Below, in pieces: positions 56,093-62,545 of a stretch of DNA of 62,545 nt (position 1 is the first letter of the stretch; each line of letters begins with the position of its first letter). Both the position numbers and the translations under genes were made by a program. The DNA comes from Methylophaga sp. (GTDB lineage: Bacteria; Pseudomonadota; Gammaproteobacteria; Nitrosococcales; Methylophagaceae), in the NCBI GenBank assembly GCA_011053005.1, contig DRHW01000025.1, positions 1-62,545 of the forward strand, in the 5' to 3' direction. The notes beneath the pieces were generated by a model. The model made no database searches, was not told the origin of the DNA, and saw nothing but the letters and a program-made list of their open reading frames with translations.

Positions 56093-58156
56093 TTGGCCCA
56101 TCATTTTACAAAAAAACAACTCATTACTCTCATTGCTATTGGACTTTTCAGCACGCAATCCAATGCCGAATCCCCAGTAGAATTAGGTTCAATTGTCGTC
56201 AATTCTTCAGACTGGTTAGGTGAGGCAAATGAAGAAAATGTTAAAACTTACACTGGATCACGAGATGTCGTGACATATGAAGAACTGCATGAAAGAGGCG
56301 CATTAAATTTAGAAGATGCACTTCGTAGTACAAATAGCGTACAAGTGCTTGATGAAACGGGGACTGGCATATTGCCTAATATTGGGGTCCGTGGTTTGAA
56401 TCCTTTGAGAAGTGAGCGTTTGCAGATGCTAGTCGATGGCTATCCCATTAGCATCGGGCCATACACCAATGTTGGCGTTTCTTTATTCCCCGTCACTTTA
56501 CCTAGTATTGAAAAAATAGATATTGTTCGAGGTGGCGCAGCGGTACATTACGGTCCTAACAATGTCGGTGGCGTACTGAATCTTATTACTAAACCTATTT
56601 CACGAGATTTTGAACAAACTATTCGTGAACGAATGACGGTTGCTGACAAAACGGGCAATGTATATTACGACAGTTATTACCGTGCATCAGGATTTGTCAC
56701 TGATGACTTAGGTTTGCAACTTCAGGTTAATCTTCAAGATGGTGATGGTTTTCGTGATCATTCGGAAACGGATGTACAGAATATTATCTTGAATGCACAG
56801 TACTTTGTGAATGATAAAAATGAATTAGATATGCAACTTCAGTATTACAATGTGAATGCAGATCTTGCAGGCGCATTGAGCCCAAGTGCATACAAGTCTG
56901 ATCGTACTCAATCTCAGCGTCCTTATGATGCTTACGATGCTGATATGCTCCGCGGCACTATGACTTGGACCTATACCCCTAATGATGATGTTGAATTTCA
57001 ATGGCGTAATTTTGCTCACAAAGCAGATAGGACATTTGATTTTTCTCAAGGAGCAGGACCTTCGTCCACTTCGTTTGATCCATCACTTAATGCCGCGACC
57101 GTATCTAGTTCGCCCCGCGTATTCAATGTGTATGGTACTGAGCCGCGCATTACGGTTAGACAAGGCAACCATGTTTTTAAAGCCGGCGCTCGATTTGTAA
57201 AAGAACAAGTGAGCTTTGATGTCAACCGATTAACCCTTGCGACCAATAGTTATAGTGCCGTTAGAAATTGGCATTTTGATACCGAAGCCGTCGCCCTTTA
57301 TGTGAGTGATTCTATTGAGTTGCTTGATAAAAAACTAATCGTAACACCAGGCGTGCGCTACGAAAATGTGAGCACTGATTTTGAAGATCAAATTACAAAT
57401 GCGGTTGGGAAAAATGATACCGATAAATTTCTTCCTGGTTTGACGGTTGGTTTGCAAGCTACAGATGCCATTTTCTTATTTGCCAATGCTCAACGTTCAT
57501 TGGTGCCGGTTCAAACAGCACAAGTGACTCGCGAGGGCGATGTTGCTAACGAACTAGCGTGGAATTATGAAGTAGGAACACGCGTTGCGGTAACGCCAGA
57601 TGTAAGTGTCAGCGGTACATTATTCAAAATTGATTATAAAGATCAGATTCAATTTAATAACGCGACAAATACCTTCCAGAACTTGGGGGAAACACGTCAT
57701 GAAGGTATTGAGTTAACGGCTGATTGGCAAGCAACAACTCACTTAGCGCTGGGTGCTGGATATACTTATCTTGAGACAGAACAGTTGACGGGAAATAACG
57801 AAGGTAATGAGTTACCTAATGCACCGCAACACAATATTAATGCTCATATCGACTATCGCGTTGGATTTTGGAAAGCAAGTCTGACCGGGTTACACGTTAG
57901 TGAAAGTTATAGTGACGCGGCCAATACAAAAATAGAAACGAGCAATGGTAGCGCAGGGCAATTACCCGCTTATACCTTGGTTAATACTCGTTTAAGTCGT
58001 GATTTTAATGTTAGCAGTAACAAACTAGAGATTGCATTGGCGATCAATAATTTACTTGATGAAGAATATTACTTCAGAGGTGTCGATGTCAGCCCTATTG
58101 GCAGACTTTCAGCACCAGGACGATCCTTTATTCTTGAAGGAAGTTTAGACTTTTAA
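56093..58156 (+). CDS. TonB-dependent outer-membrane receptor, FecA-like
   Basis: A 687-residue ligand-gated porin. A signal peptide (FTKKQLITLIAIGLFSTQSNA, cleaved before ESPVE) precedes a plug domain (residues about 45-175, LQMLVDGYPISIGPYTNVG, FPVTLPSIEKIDIVRGGAAVHYGPNNVGGVLNLITK) and a 22-stranded barrel ending in the aromatic-terminated SFILEGSLDF. The FPVTLPSIEKIDIVRGG and GPNNVGGV strings resemble FecA, the ferric dicitrate receptor, but there is no N-terminal signalling domain, so it does not talk to a sigma/anti-sigma pair by that route. Substrate is probably a ferric chelate. It starts at TTG 56093, as no ATG precedes the signal peptide. Confidence 0.88.
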   Translation: MAHHFTKKQLITLIAIGLFSTQSNAESPVELGSIVVNSSDWLGEANEENVKTYTGSRDVVTYEELHERGALNLEDALRSTNSVQVLDETGTGILPNIGVRGLNPLRSERLQMLVDGYPISIGPYTNVGVSLFPVTLPSIEKIDIVRGGAAVHYGPNNVGGVLNLITKPISRDFEQTIRERMTVADKTGNVYYDSYYRASGFVTDDLGLQLQVNLQDGDGFRDHSETDVQNIILNAQYFVNDKNELDMQLQYYNVNADLAGALSPSAYKSDRTQSQRPYDAYDADMLRGTMTWTYTPNDDVEFQWRNFAHKADRTFDFSQGAGPSSTSFDPSLNAATVSSSPRVFNVYGTEPRITVRQGNHVFKAGARFVKEQVSFDVNRLTLATNSYSAVRNWHFDTEAVALYVSDSIELLDKKLIVTPGVRYENVSTDFEDQITNAVGKNDTDKFLPGLTVGLQATDAIFLFANAQRSLVPVQTAQVTREGDVANELAWNYEVGTRVAVTPDVSVSGTLFKIDYKDQIQFNNATNTFQNLGETRHEGIELTADWQATTHLALGAGYTYLETEQLTGNNEGNELPNAPQHNINAHIDYRVGFWKASLTGLHVSESYSDAANTKIETSNGSAGQLPAYTLVNTRLSRDFNVSSNKLEIALAINNLLDEEYYFRGVDVSPIGRLSAPGRSFILEGSLDF

Positions 58157-58413: not shown

Positions 58414-58704
58414 TTACCACTGATAGTTTACCGAACCAATAACCATACGTTCGTCGCCATAACGACAAGTGCTGTTGCAGAATAAGTATTTTTCGTTAGT
58501 TAAGTTTTGCGCTTTCATTGCCATAGACCAGTTCTTATCGACTTCGTAGCTTATTTTCAAGTCATAGAGGGGATAGTCATCCACCTTTTGGTTGGTGTCT
58601 GAACTCGAGATATAGCTAGTGCCTATATAACGAGCACCACCACCAATCACAACTTTAGGTAAACCTAAAGCTGCTAAGCGATAATCTGTCCAAATGCTCG
58701 CCAC
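58414..58704 (-). pseudogene. C-terminal remnant of a TonB-dependent siderophore receptor
   Basis: The last 96 residues (to about 58725 upstream in frame) of a siderophore-type receptor: GGGARYIGTSYISSSDTNQKVDDYPLYDLKISYEVDKNW and the barrel end AMKAQNLTNEKYLFCNSTCRYGDERMVIGSVNYQW are the family's closing strands. The signal peptide, plug and first 18-20 strands are missing, so it cannot make a receptor. It lies on the same strand and immediately downstream of a truncated sigma factor, as would follow from one deletion of the middle of a sigma/anti-sigma/receptor operon. Confidence 0.88.
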
Positions 58705-59074
58705 ATTTGTTGGTCTTCCGGCGTGCAGTTACCACTATAATAATGACGCGGTGTTCTGGTGAAGGTTCTAAAGCCTCTGGTTGTGTCGTTAAAGTATCCA
58801 GCCATGGTTGTTCAACTTCACGTCGTCGCCATAGAGCGATACACATACCATTGGCTAAAGTCCGTAAATAAGCACGCGCTTCAAGCTCACTTCCGAAACC
58901 ACCGGAAGCTGGTTTTATAAGCAAACGTAAAAAGGCATCTTGTGCCAAATCAGCCAAATCAGCCAAATCAGCCGCATTACCCAAACGACGGCGTAACCAT
59001 CCTTGTAACCAAACGTGATGGTCGTAGTAAAGATTTTCTACAGAAGGAGAGGAAGTGGCATCGCCCGATTTCAT
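58655..59074 (-). pseudogene. Truncated FecI-type ECF sigma factor
   Basis: An open frame of 139 residues. Residues 1 to about 110 are the front of a FecI-like iron-starvation sigma factor: VENLYYDHHVWLQGWLRRRLGNAADLAD, LAQDAFLRLLIKP, ARAYLRTLANGMCIALWRRREVEQPWLDTL and PEALEPSPEHRV. Region 4, which reads the -35 element, is missing: from about residue 112 the sequence has no homology and merges in another frame with the receptor remnant. A normal FecI has about 170 residues. Three copies of LAD occur at residues 36-44, where the family has fewer. Almost certainly nonfunctional. Confidence 0.85.
58944..58973. repeat. Nine-base tandem repeat (three copies) in the sigma factor remnant
   Basis: GCCAAATCA occurs three times consecutively plus a partial fourth copy (GCC). 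It encodes repeated LAD tripeptides in region 2 of the sigma remnant. It arose by slippage or duplication and is a sign of relaxed selection. Confidence 0.9.
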
Positions 59075-59426: not shown

Positions 59427-59451
59427 ATGATATGATGTAGCATAACATATT
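59427..59451 (+). promoter_or_regulatory. Imperfect palindromic operator near the promoter of the CobN-linked receptor
   Basis: ATGATATGATG and CATAACATATT flank TAG and pair at 7 of 11 positions. TATGAT inside it resembles a -10 element. It lies 30-54 bases before the receptor start. A metal-responsive repressor of the Fur/Zur family is a possible binder, but the spacing does not match a standard Zur or Fur box. Confidence 0.35.
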
Positions 59452-59480: not shown

Positions 59481-61415
59481 ATGAAAATATCCTCTCCTTA
59501 CTTTCTATCAGCCTTCCTACCTACGGTGTTTTTATTTAATAGCTTAGCTGCTGAAGCAGAGACACAAAGACTTGAGACAGTTGTTGTTACTGCAAGTACC
59601 CGTGAAAATGATTTAAAAACAGCGCCAGCTAGCATTTCTGTGATCAGCAAAGAAGAGTTAAAACTTCGTGATGCTGATGATTTGACCGATGCGCTATCTT
59701 CAGAACCAGGGATTAATATCACCTCCATTGGTCAGACTCGTCGTGGGATAAGTATCCGGGGTATGCCGGAAGAACATACTTTATTTATGTTGAATGGACA
59801 GCGTCTCAGTTCTAGTAATGCGGTTATTGCTCACTCCGACTTTGAGCTAAGTTGGTTACCGCCCAGTGCGATAGAGCGTATCGAAGTTGTTCGTGGACCA
59901 ATGTCTTCGCTTTATGGTTCTGATGCTTTAGGTGGTGTCATCAATGTCATTACGAAGGTACCCAATAAAGAGTTCTCTGGGGAAATATCAACAAGCTTGA
60001 GAGCTATTGAAGGTGAAGGTTCAGATGGCCGTACCTCAAAAAGCAATCTCTATATGGGCGGTCCAATTCTAGAGGATAAGTTAGCATTTACTTTTGCAGG
60101 TCAACTTTATGACCGTAATGAATTACCGTTGGAAACGGATCCATCGCAGTCGGATAGTGAGTCACGAGATGCTCATTCAGGTAGAGGTTCGTTAATCTGG
60201 ACGCCGGTTGATGGACAGCGTTTTGATTTTGCATTCAGTCGAAGCCAAGATGACCGCAGCCGTAATGTGGCTGCACGTTCTGATTACTACCAATCTGACG
60301 ATGATATTGATAGACAACATTATTCATTGGCTTATAAAGGCCAGTGGGACTGGGGGCACAGCGATGTGAATATTTATCAGTCTTCTATTGAGCGACAAAA
60401 TACACGATCGTCTAATTCAACTGCGACGCGACCACAGGAAGTTAAAGACAAGGTTATAGATGGTCATATAGGTTTGCCTGTTGGAGAGCGACATTTTTTG
60501 ACCTTGGGTGGTCAGATTCGTAGTGAAACATTATATGACGATGTGGCCGGTGGTAGCAGTGACAGCGTATCTGCAAACCATCGTTCGGCATTTGTTCAGG
60601 ATGAGATTGATATTCTAAATAATCTGCAATTGGTTGCTGGTTTACGAGTTGATAACCATGAAAAATACGGTAACGAAACTAGCCCGCGATTGTATGTTGT
60701 CTACGAGCCAACTTCTAATCTGGTAGTTAAAGGCGGCTATGGACAGGGCTTTCGTGCACCAAGTTTGACTGAATTGTCTCCCGACTTTAGGGTTTTGGCT
60801 GCTGGTGGTTTGTTTTGGGCATACGGTAATCCTAATTTGCAACCTGAACTATCGGAAACCTATGAAATCGGTTTTGACTACAGTCTCGAGCAATGGTCTG
60901 TCTCAGCCAATGTATTCCAGAACAATTTAGAAAATTTGGTACAGACACAATGCCGTAGTTTTTGTGGTCTTCGTGGTCGTGAAATTCGTTATTACGAAAA
61001 TGTAGATGAAGCGCGAATTCGTGGTGTTGAACTTGGCCTGATGCATGAGCTCAGCGAGACCGTCACACTCAACGCCAACTATACTTATTTGGATACTGAA
61101 GATCTCGGGAGCGGTAATGAGTTGGAGCGCCGTCCCCAAGATTCAGGAAACATTTTATTGAGTTGGATGTTTATGCCTCAGTCAACGTTGCGCTGGCGTT
61201 CAGAATTTATCGGCAAGCAATACGTAGGCGATGATCAATATACGCCTGCATACGATCTGCATCATATAGATTTTTCTTATGCAGTTACAGATCAGTTTAC
61301 GGTCAATGCAGGTATCGAAAACCTGTTTAATGATCGTTTGCAGGAAAAATCTGACCTATATACTTTGGCTGAGCCGGGGCGAGCTTTCCGTCTTGGAATG
61401 ACCGTCGGATTTTAA
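59481..61415 (+). CDS. TonB-dependent outer-membrane receptor (CirA/FepA/BtuB-like) linked to a CobN-type chelatase
   Basis: The 644-residue receptor has a signal peptide (SSPYFLSAFLPTVFLFNSLA, mature start near ETQ), the TonB box ETVVVTAS near residue 33, plug motifs (ISIRGMPEEHTLFMLNGQRL near 92-112, IERIEVVRGPMSSLYGSDALGGVINVITK near 132-160) and a barrel ending FRLGMTVGF, phenylalanine-terminated. The plug resembles CirA-type and BtuB-type receptors; the ligand cannot be told from the sequence. The next gene, four bases downstream, encodes an exported CobN-family protein, so the ligand may be a metal-bearing tetrapyrrole or a cobalt chelate. Confidence 0.9.
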   Translation: MKISSPYFLSAFLPTVFLFNSLAAEAETQRLETVVVTASTRENDLKTAPASISVISKEELKLRDADDLTDALSSEPGINITSIGQTRRGISIRGMPEEHTLFMLNGQRLSSSNAVIAHSDFELSWLPPSAIERIEVVRGPMSSLYGSDALGGVINVITKVPNKEFSGEISTSLRAIEGEGSDGRTSKSNLYMGGPILEDKLAFTFAGQLYDRNELPLETDPSQSDSESRDAHSGRGSLIWTPVDGQRFDFAFSRSQDDRSRNVAARSDYYQSDDDIDRQHYSLAYKGQWDWGHSDVNIYQSSIERQNTRSSNSTATRPQEVKDKVIDGHIGLPVGERHFLTLGGQIRSETLYDDVAGGSSDSVSANHRSAFVQDEIDILNNLQLVAGLRVDNHEKYGNETSPRLYVVYEPTSNLVVKGGYGQGFRAPSLTELSPDFRVLAAGGLFWAYGNPNLQPELSETYEIGFDYSLEQWSVSANVFQNNLENLVQTQCRSFCGLRGREIRYYENVDEARIRGVELGLMHELSETVTLNANYTYLDTEDLGSGNELERRPQDSGNILLSWMFMPQSTLRWRSEFIGKQYVGDDQYTPAYDLHHIDFSYAVTDQFTVNAGIENLFNDRLQEKSDLYTLAEPGRAFRLGMTVGF

Positions 61416-61419
61416 CAGT

Positions 61420-62545
61420 ATGAAAAGATACATCTATCTATTGGTACTGTTTTTATTATCTTTTTCTTCTCACGGAGCGGCAATCGCCGAGACAGGTTTT
61501 AGATTGAGTATTGTAACTAATGATTTTGTTTTACCTTCCAAATTAACCAAGTTGAAAAACTGGGCAGCGGCTCACCAAATCACACTAACGGGTGTGTATG
61601 TTGAGAAAATTAAGGAACAGCCAGACTGGTTGAATAGAGATCTGGTTATTGTGGATACACCGCGAGGTGGTGATCGAGCTAGAGTCATGGCGGCCATCAA
61701 GTCAGAGTTGGATGAGACACGTGTTCCTTGGGTCGCCGTAGGTGGTGGGCCTCCCTTATCGGGTAATTTACCCGCCGTTGTGATGCGTCAGTTGTTGGCC
61801 TATTACAGTGCAGGTGGAGAAACAAATTTTAACAATATGTTTGCCTATATTATTGCTTGGCAGCAGCAAAAACCGCTAGATAATATTGCTAAACCACTGG
61901 CGATGCCGGAAGCAGGGATCTATCATTTTGATGCTGATGGCATTTTTGAAAGCTGGCAAGATTATTTGCTATGGGGACAATCTCGCTGGGCAACGGATGC
62001 GCCAGTGTTAGCAATTGCAATGTCATCCAGCTTTATTTCAAATAGTCAGACACAATTTTATGATGAGTTGATGAAAAAAATTGAACAGGCAGGAGGCATT
62101 CCACTTGTTTTCTGGTTTGATCGATTAAAGCCTTCGGGTATTCAAGATGTTATTGCGGCGGCAAAACCAGTCATGCTTGTTAATACAACGCATATGATTG
62201 CTGGTGATATACGGCAAGCTGAGTTTCGTCAATTGGATATTCCTGTCGTGATCGGTTTGACCTCACGTGACTATGATATTGCATCTTGGCGGCAGGCTGA
62301 AAAGGGAATTCCAGCACATACGACAGCAGCGATGGTGACTATTCCTGAAAGTTGGGGGCTGAGTGATCCGCTGGTGCTTGCCGCATTGGAAGAGGGGGAA
62401 CCGAAAGCGATTCCTGAACAACTTGATTTGTTAGTAGGACGTTTTATGGCGATGGCAAAACTTAAACAACAGCCTGTAGCACAAACTAGATTGGCCCTGA
62501 TGTTTTGGAACTCGCCATCAGGTGAAAAAAATCTGTCGGCATCCA
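61420..62545 (+). CDS. CobN-family chelatase-like protein with an N-terminal signal peptide (3' end cut by window)
   Basis: At least 375 residues of a CobN/BchH-type large chelatase subunit are visible. The first 24 residues are a signal peptide (YIYLLVLFLLSFSSHG, then AAIAE), unlike cytoplasmic CobN. The mature part has the CobN opening (LKNWAAAHQITLTGVYVEKI), GGGPPLSG near 108 and VVIGLTSRDYDIASWRQAEKGIPAHTTAAMVTIPESWG near 276-313, where CobN proteins carry their conserved core. ATG 61420 follows the receptor stop by 4 bases. The subunit normally works with CobS/CobT or ChlI/ChlD; no partner is visible. Similar exported CobN homologues lie in heme-acquisition operons of Bacteroidetes (HmuS). 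Confidence 0.85.
   Translation, partial: MKRYIYLLVLFLLSFSSHGAAIAETGFRLSIVTNDFVLPSKLTKLKNWAAAHQITLTGVYVEKIKEQPDWLNRDLVIVDTPRGGDRARVMAAIKSELDETRVPWVAVGGGPPLSGNLPAVVMRQLLAYYSAGGETNFNNMFAYIIAWQQQKPLDNIAKPLAMPEAGIYHFDADGIFESWQDYLLWGQSRWATDAPVLAIAMSSSFISNSQTQFYDELMKKIEQAGGIPLVFWFDRLKPSGIQDVIAAAKPVMLVNTTHMIAGDIRQAEFRQLDIPVVIGLTSRDYDIASWRQAEKGIPAHTTAAMVTIPESWGLSDPLVLAALEEGEPKAIPEQLDLLVGRFMAMAKLKQQPVAQTRLALMFWNSPSGEKNLSAS

Follow-up and report, generated by a model that had tools for sequence, protein, structure and literature searches.

Two kinds of described system come closest to the locus reported here. In Pseudomonas aeruginosa, zinc depletion induces the operon PA1922-PA1925, and Zur binds to the operon's promoter (PMC4542158, PMC8531726); published accounts treat the operon as an import system for zinc or cobalt whose function is unsettled (PMC4542158, PMC8531726, PMC11761036, PMC13083405). 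In the Bacteroidota, HmuS of the hmuYRSTUV operon is a heme dechelatase, in which the H538A change abolished heme dechelation (PMC12583661), and BtuS has been set apart as a third CobN-related kind (PMC6460266). We analysed a stretch of 62,545 nucleotides from Methylophaga sp. (GCA_011053005.1, contig DRHW01000025.1; the window), which ends in the genes of a TonB-dependent receptor and of an exported CobN-like protein. We conclude that the operon of these two genes very probably has a role in zinc starvation. Leaving its motor aside, we also find it somewhat more probable than not, from the predicted proteins, that the operon encodes a zinc-chelate importer with a periplasmic dechelatase.

The features on which the argument rests are as follows.

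59481..61415, plus strand: TonB-dependent receptor of 644 aa, CirA-like, with Pfam Plug and barrel domains.
61420..62545, open at the window end, plus strand: first 375 residues of an exported protein of the CobN family (class I chelatases), PF02514.
Contig C7, positions 12721-10190 of locus L006, minus strand: CobN-like remainder of 843 aa with a C-terminal membrane segment, PF02514.
59429..59446, no strand assigned: Zur-like operator GATATGATGTAGCATAAC, found by pattern search with 3 mismatches to the palindrome GATATGATATATCATATC.

The window is the entire contig C25 of a 2.89 Mb genome in 44 contigs, and the chelatase gene is therefore truncated by the assembly and not by the scan. Both open reading frames at the window end were found to be real by their Pfam matches, and the spacing of 4 bases between them, given in an earlier sequence-only reading of this DNA, was confirmed. 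PF02514 matched in the genome only at the window end, at the end of C7 and on C16. The N-terminal piece scored 142 bits over profile positions 2-271 of 1090, and the C7 piece, which begins at the very end of its contig and carries the C-terminal part, covered positions 340-1089. The M. sulfidovorans orthologue, found as the one locus in a single-protein scan of a collection of genome contigs, is complete (1279 aa, on a single contig). Our pieces aligned to its residues 7-375 (243 identities) and 443-1279 (634 identities), with 75% identity in the best segment of the C-terminal piece, and by this alignment about 67 chelatase residues fall in the assembly gap between C25 and C7. Comparison of the two contig ends gave no exact overlap. 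We consider the join safe enough for interpretation, because the gene order is unbroken in M. sulfidovorans, where the receptor, CobN, ExbB, DUF2149 and ZrgA genes are all on one contig, and in the genus genome G013. The ExbB and DUF2149 genes that had been predicted past the window were indeed present on C7 directly after the chelatase: the ExbB/MotA-family gene follows CobN with no HmuT-like gene between them, and the DUF2149 gene comes next (93.9 bits, cut-off 27.1).

When we examined the neighbours further along C7, past a gap that has its own box, we observed genes for MerC, ZigA (692 bits, cut-off 600), DUF1826, ZrgA (PF10986) and a Zur-like FUR protein, whose best NCBIfam name is Zur at 90 bits, below the cut-off of 167. 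Pointing towards the Zur-like FUR gene is a DUF3299 gene, with an ABC ATPase and a permease behind it. Similar company was seen elsewhere. In M. sulfidovorans, ZrgA (named by similarity) adjoins DUF2149; in G013 a Zur-like gene lies just upstream of the operon copy; and in G460, a genome from another class of the same phylum, the order is zigA-DUF1826-methyltransferase-receptor-CobN-ExbB-DUF2149 (ZigA 605 bits, cut-off 600), with Zur-like, ZrgA and DUF3299 genes divergent from the receptor-CobN-ExbB-DUF2149 set. Zinc genes stood alongside in 4 of the 5 loci of the chelatase clade to which our protein belongs (own, L014, L015, L083 and L082; the zinc clade). The operon is like PA1922-PA1925 in its receptor and CobN-like gene; the P. 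aeruginosa operon has a gene annotated as ExbD, along with the induction by zinc depletion and the Zur-bound promoter. Likened by description, the methyltransferase ahead of the G460 set has its counterpart in PA1921, which appears next to PA1922 in the zinc-depletion table (PMC4542158).

The palindrome GATATGATATATCATATC was derived by reading upstream regions. At up to 3 mismatches, its sole match in the window was the operator at 59429-59446, 34 bases from the receptor start codon (0.03 expected; at least one match in 3 of 100 shuffles). The whole 2.89 Mb genome had four matches, and the reversed-pattern control had none:

before our own operon
before merC-zigA
before an ABC-receptor operon on contig C2
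before an M23 endopeptidase gene on contig C26 (ShyA/MepM-type similarity, below the cut-offs of those models).

When up to 2 mismatches were allowed, 9 of the 29 genus genomes had the pattern, with 14 occurrences between them, and the control gave 0 in all 29. The neighbours of these sites were assigned by similarity to seeds from the loci of this study. Seven sites were at merC, zigA, DUF1826, zrgA or zur genes (the assignments of L119 merC and L120 merC are weak), two were before the G013 operon copy, both lying between zur and the receptor, two were before the ABC-receptor operon (one being our own copy, which supplied the seed), and three (L117, L122 and L124) were at no seeded gene. The P. 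aeruginosa Zur consensus matched the merC box, the G013 box, one M. sulfidovorans box and a site by G460 zigA/zur; it did not match the window box. A scan for near-perfect palindromes upstream of related operons (11 regions) gave none in 6, the window's own included; the G013 box scored, and the other matches were unlike the box. From the targets that share this predicted operator, we infer that the factor acting at the box would be Zur. Because of the zinc-gene neighbours and the shared promoter box, a zinc-starvation operon, and not a heme operon, is the most likely identity of the locus.

An M23 endopeptidase gene has this box ahead of it both in M. sulfidovorans (L014 6282) and in our own genome (L108 5238). 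In Vibrio, ShyB is reportedly a zinc-starvation endopeptidase and ZrgABCDE a zinc importer. Our locus is similar in that ZrgA, DUF3299 and ABC genes are next door and the box stands before an M23 endopeptidase gene; however, the counterparts here are neighbours or regulon mates and do not belong to the receptor-chelatase unit. The box-bearing stretch on C2 (L107 5179-10664) has an ABC ATPase, a receptor and two membrane proteins read as ABC-2-like, and it is possibly a second zinc-starvation receptor system.

The receptor scored 94.7 bits for Plug and 209 bits for the barrel, and its best NCBIfam model was CirA (397 of 745 bits). It is 78% identical to the receptor of M. sulfidovorans, 64% to that of G013, and 48-49% to those of G460 and G598, both from another class. 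Histidine-rich loops are a feature of ZnuD. The receptor sequence has no histidine-rich stretch (a cysteine pair, CRSFCGLRG, is present), and it reached only 59.4 bits with the ZnuD model NF038289, for which the cut-off is 950; a free-zinc receptor of the ZnuD type was set aside on these two grounds.

The CobN-like protein shares the class I chelatase domain PF02514 with CobN and BchH/ChlH. Unlike those proteins, which are cytosolic and have AAA+ partners, it has membrane segments at both ends. Its N-terminus carries a signal-like stretch, MKRYIYLLVLFLLSFSSHGAAIAE (15-residue hydropathy maximum of the N-terminal piece, 1.81), and the C-terminal piece reaches 2.59 in a membrane segment, so that by hydropathy the protein looks exported, as had been proposed. 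The best match of the C-terminal piece in the Protein Data Bank was HmuS 9d26 (380 bits, versus 309 for ChlH and 297 for CobN). In a quick tree of 46 rows, midpoint-rooted and with three long end branches, our protein grouped with those of M. sulfidovorans, G013, G460 and G598, with Azospirillum brasilense as sister; this clade was apart from HmuS, CobN, BchH and the clade of the C16 paralogue, with long branches to HmuS. The sequence-only reading had named clustering within ordinary cytoplasmic CobN, or a downstream CobS/CobT pair together with the lack of a real signal peptide, as what would speak against its proposal. The protein formed a separate clade, and no CobS passed the cut-off in the genome (TIGR01650, best 33.8 bits, cut-off 558.6; CobT was not searched). 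BchD likewise stayed below its cut-off (TIGR02031, best 44.8 bits, cut-off 499.6).

We compared the active site using the residue numbers of the published B. thetaiotaomicron HmuS, read on the B. finegoldii row. Positions 79, 254, 299, 502, 506, 538 and 577 fit by number, and for six more (1198-1212) we relied on the DHxxEFMGG motif, whose start in the B. finegoldii row is 1104. The zinc clade and Azospirillum keep His506, His538, Glu577, Asp1208, His1209 and Glu1212 wherever these are readable (L015 is partly masked). In our C-terminal piece, His538 is in HLGTHG (HxGTHG), and His1209 and Glu1212 are in LSTDHPFEYLGG (the DHxxE motif). The HmuS heme ligand Met79 is absent from the zinc clade and Azospirillum, being Pro in our N-terminal half and in M. 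sulfidovorans, although one of the three HmuS rows used (L097) is likewise without it. In the same set of proteins His replaces Trp1202, and Phe502, Gln299 and Gln1198 are missing. His254 is kept in a different setting, which in our protein is NTTHM, where Met follows in place of Gly-Arg (HGR). DDPFQY stands in place of DHPFEY in most other receptor-linked rows, while L016, L027 and L092 retain DHPFEY.

These residues bear on whether the locus could be a heme utilisation operon like hmuYRSTUV, in which the receptor would import heme and the CobN-like protein would extract its iron. HmuS is the closest solved structure for the C-terminal piece, and the locus is like the Bacteroidota systems in its receptor, in its exported and anchored CobN-like protein with the six active-site residues (PMC12583661, PMC13227078, PMC6460266), and in the ExbB and DUF2149 genes that follow in both operon types. 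We nevertheless consider a heme operon improbable. The neighbours and the box are of the zinc kind, no HmuY or HmuT gene is among the neighbours of our locus or of the M. sulfidovorans one, and long branches separate the protein from HmuS. It also differs from HmuS in the loss of Met79, in His at Trp1202, in the setting of His254, and in Phe502, Gln299 and Gln1198, which are not conserved. A heme operon as first choice was rejected on the zinc context and the absent Met79.

A cobalt system is unlikely too, although a little less so. The protein could be a cobaltochelatase for cobalamin, or part of a device that lets cobalt replace zinc in shortage. The family name and the scores with NF004644 'CobN' speak for this (357.7 and 1156.6 bits for the two pieces scored separately, whole-protein cut-off 1248), as does the rise of cellular cobalt in a P. 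aeruginosa znuA mutant, for which the authors suggest the PA1922-25 operon as cause (PMC4542158); a similar speculation is found in PMC11761036 and PMC13083405. Against it are the membrane segments and the searches in which CobS and BchD stayed below cut-off (CobT being outside them), and the scanned C7 neighbours, which include no cob gene. The cobalamin-adjacent clade is that of the C16 paralogue: 4 of its 7 rows (L055, L086, L087 and L089) are beside cobalamin genes (cobB, cobO or bluB-like). A role in B12 biosynthesis was accordingly set aside for our gene, as it suits the C16 clade better by clade and neighbours. In G585 (L085 4379-10118), an exported CobN outside the C16 type, with ExbB and DUF2149, is beside a receptor and a cobO-like gene, and the cobalamin link is therefore not confined to the C16 clade. 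Of the earlier proposal that a metallated tetrapyrrole or cobalt chelate is imported and processed, the processing of a metal chelate survives as the best reading and a tetrapyrrole is possible, while a heme or cobalt operon is disfavoured by the zinc neighbours, the promoter box and the absent Met79.

The C16 paralogue itself (L007 7475-12656) is another exported CobN, accompanied by an ExbB and a DUF2149 of its own, with no receptor in 18 kb. It has Asp at the place of His1209, and its HG is HS. No box was found in the 18 kb searched around it.

The catalytic direction is not readable from sequence, and the CobN-like protein might instead be a zinc-binding sensor or chaperone, or might insert zinc into a tetrapyrrole. 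We regard this as unlikely, since the protein keeps the residue at which an alanine substitution abolished dechelation by HmuS (PMC12583661), and a starving cell would profit little from insertion. Dechelation, rather than insertion or storage, is what we would moderately favour from the residues. That the ligand is a tetrapyrrole is conceivable, but we lean against it. The retention of His254 with loss of Met79 would suit a five-coordinate zinc porphyrin; zinc coproporphyrin is produced by bacteria (PMC6104308), and as a zinc source for our system it is a speculation. The residues that link the PA1922-25 kind to HmuS raise a direct question, namely whether zinc is stripped from a chelate.

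Several observations weigh against a zinc-chelate dechelatase. The operon is divided over two contigs, with the residues between them absent. The window box has 3 mismatches and is thus outside the 14 stricter genus sites, and 20 of the 29 genus genomes have no box at up to 2 mismatches. The 29 kb read at L082/L110, from the same genus as G460, yielded no seeded zinc gene. Taken by itself, the N-terminal piece is closest to ChlH (29.6 bits, HmuS 24.8), and Phe502, Gln299 and Gln1198 of HmuS are not retained. Automatic annotation would probably call the protein a cobaltochelatase, a name that denotes annotation and not function. From the literature, a review takes PA1922 as an importer of free, unchelated zinc (PMC10393844), and protoporphyrin IX was still produced by a B. 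fragilis double mutant of btuS1 and btuS2 (PMC6460266).

For a zinc-chelate importer with a periplasmic dechelatase, we suggest the following course. When zinc is scarce, Zur would leave the operator at 59429-59446, and the receptor, CobN-like, ExbB-like and DUF2149 proteins would be made alongside the neighbouring zinc genes. The receptor would carry a zinc complex into the periplasm, powered by one of the ordinary TonB/ExbD sets of the genome. Anchored in the inner membrane through its C-terminal helix, the CobN-like protein would take the complex into an HmuS-type active site, where His538 would face His1209, with Asp1208 and Glu1212, and the metal would be removed. ZrgA with its ABC transporter, or else a protein of the ZnuA family, could receive the freed zinc, and ZigA could hand it on. 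The ExbB-DUF2149 proton channel might give the chelatase mechanical energy by docking on its C-terminal helix and linker motif.

The last step concerns what ExbB and DUF2149 act upon, and we evaluated it by linkage. DUF2149 (PF09919) was present in 17 of 398 genomes of the phylum, our own included, with 19 genes in total. CobN and ExbB were within 2.5 kb in all 19 neighbourhoods, and a receptor was within 3 kb in 14 (our own via the contig join), the other five being L007, L084, L086, L087 and L088. The L084 CobN, an antisense frame missed by the open-reading-frame caller, is in the linkage count and outside the tree, motif and hydropathy sets; L081 was counted in the linkage although its chelatase is without the HG motif. 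A strong C-terminal hydrophobic segment was seen in all 18 CobNs measured at the 19 loci (1.90 to 3.53), and a strong N-terminal one in 16 of the 18, the exceptions being L085, whose start is uncertain, and our own C-terminal piece, which has no N-terminus. In ten cytosolic-type CobN or BchH rows the C-terminal hydropathy was at most 1.36. In the single case of Marinobacter L055, with no ExbB or DUF2149 in 15 kb, the N-terminal segment scored 1.67 and the C-terminal 0.69. The variable linker that leads into the C-terminal helix carried a motif, [VI]xGxx[LM], in 25 of the 26 exported rows belonging to neither the HmuS nor the C16 clade; elsewhere it occurred in 1.6% of shuffled sequences, in 0 of 3 HmuS, 0 of 7 C16-type and 1 of 10 cytosolic rows. 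This motif was noticed in the same sequences in which it was then counted, and the count is descriptive, the related rows not being independent. The membrane segment of DUF2149 had an acidic residue in all 24 rows (Asp in 23, Glu in 1).

Since no CobS or BchD partner was recognisable and the periplasm is without ATP, the most likely function of ExbB-DUF2149 would be to energise the chelatase. We give slightly less than an even chance to the claim that CobN, and not the receptor, is what this motor drives. Less probable, though a serious contender, is that ExbB-DUF2149 energises the receptor and the CobN-like protein needs no energy source. This is how HmuU/HmuV are drawn for B. thetaiotaomicron, where a figure legend has them powering the receptor HmuR (PMC12583661). 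That 14 of the 19 loci have a receptor within 3 kb agrees with that assignment, as does the in vitro activity of anchorless HmuS over 1-2 turnovers. Several points tell against a chelatase motor: anchorless recombinant HmuS converted heme with NADH and without HmuU/HmuV, and the conversion required no ATP (PMC12583661); and in an hhalign comparison of DUF2149 with ExbD only 23 membrane columns aligned, at a probability of 23.5%. However, five of the 19 loci have no receptor within 3 kb and yet CobN is kept in all 19, the C-terminal segment is strong in 18 of 18 CobNs and weak in the ten cytosolic-type rows, and no TonB is among the scanned neighbours, while a profile search of the genome gave six matches to TonB_C and seven to ExbD elsewhere. 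DUF2149 also occurs in Methanosarcina acetivorans, an archaeon (seen as a search control), and such archaea are not known to possess an outer membrane. Dechelation of heme by purified HmuS that lacked the membrane helices stopped after 1-2 turnovers (PMC12583661), which leaves room for a motor, and a P. gingivalis paper left the effect of HmuT, HmuU and HmuV on HmuS undecided.

For a motor acting on the chelatase, we offer a wider proposal tentatively, as less probable than the motor assignment itself. The exported CobN-like protein, ExbB and DUF2149 may form a class I chelatase of a kind of its own, which would run on the proton gradient and not on an AAA+ ATPase. The chelatase would be tied to the channel by the C-terminal helix and, except in the HmuS and C16 clades, also by the linker motif. 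The 1-2 turnovers of anchorless HmuS would then be the activity that remains without the motor. The same machine may be fitted to zinc, nickel, heme iron and cobalt or corrinoid diets, and the cargo of the zinc type may be a zinc tetrapyrrole such as zinc coproporphyrin. The metal contexts behind this were zinc (our own locus and G460), nickel (near nikR in Azospirillum brasilense and within a hyp cluster in Runella, described below), heme iron (hmu) and cobalt or corrinoids (beside cob genes). If ExbB-DUF2149 drives the chelatase, this would be a new use of a TonB/Mot-type proton motor, it would explain chelatase turnover in the ATP-free periplasm, and the roles of HmuU/HmuV in gut and oral Bacteroidota would need a second look. 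The accessible descriptions of PA1922-PA1925, unlike this proposal, contain no chelatase-motor idea. A literature search, covering chiefly titles, abstract openings and passages, with subscription papers mostly outside it, returned no proposal of a proton-driven chelatase or of a zinc dechelatase of the CobN family.

Related arrangements were seen on three plasmids. On one of Azospirillum brasilense (L051 8920-20878), the sister of the zinc clade lies near an ABC importer, a receptor and, at 7.5 kb, nikR, which suggests a nickel version. On one of Runella slithyformis (L053 2557-10591), a receptor, a permease, ExbB, DUF2149 and CobN are inside a hyp hydrogenase-maturation cluster; the permease has weak NicO/DsbD matches, below cut-off. 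On one of Paracoccus alcaliphilus (L094 3629-4573), a receptor fragment and DUF2149 are beside repABC, and the stretch read has neither CobN nor ExbB; this looks like a decayed copy. Within the window, the minus strand at 58414-59074 has a 96-aa C-terminal barrel fragment of a receptor and, next to it, a 139-aa FecI-like sigma fragment that Pfam matches in region 2 only. Near the FecA-like receptor at 56093-58156, these look like remnants of a Fec-type signalling receptor system.

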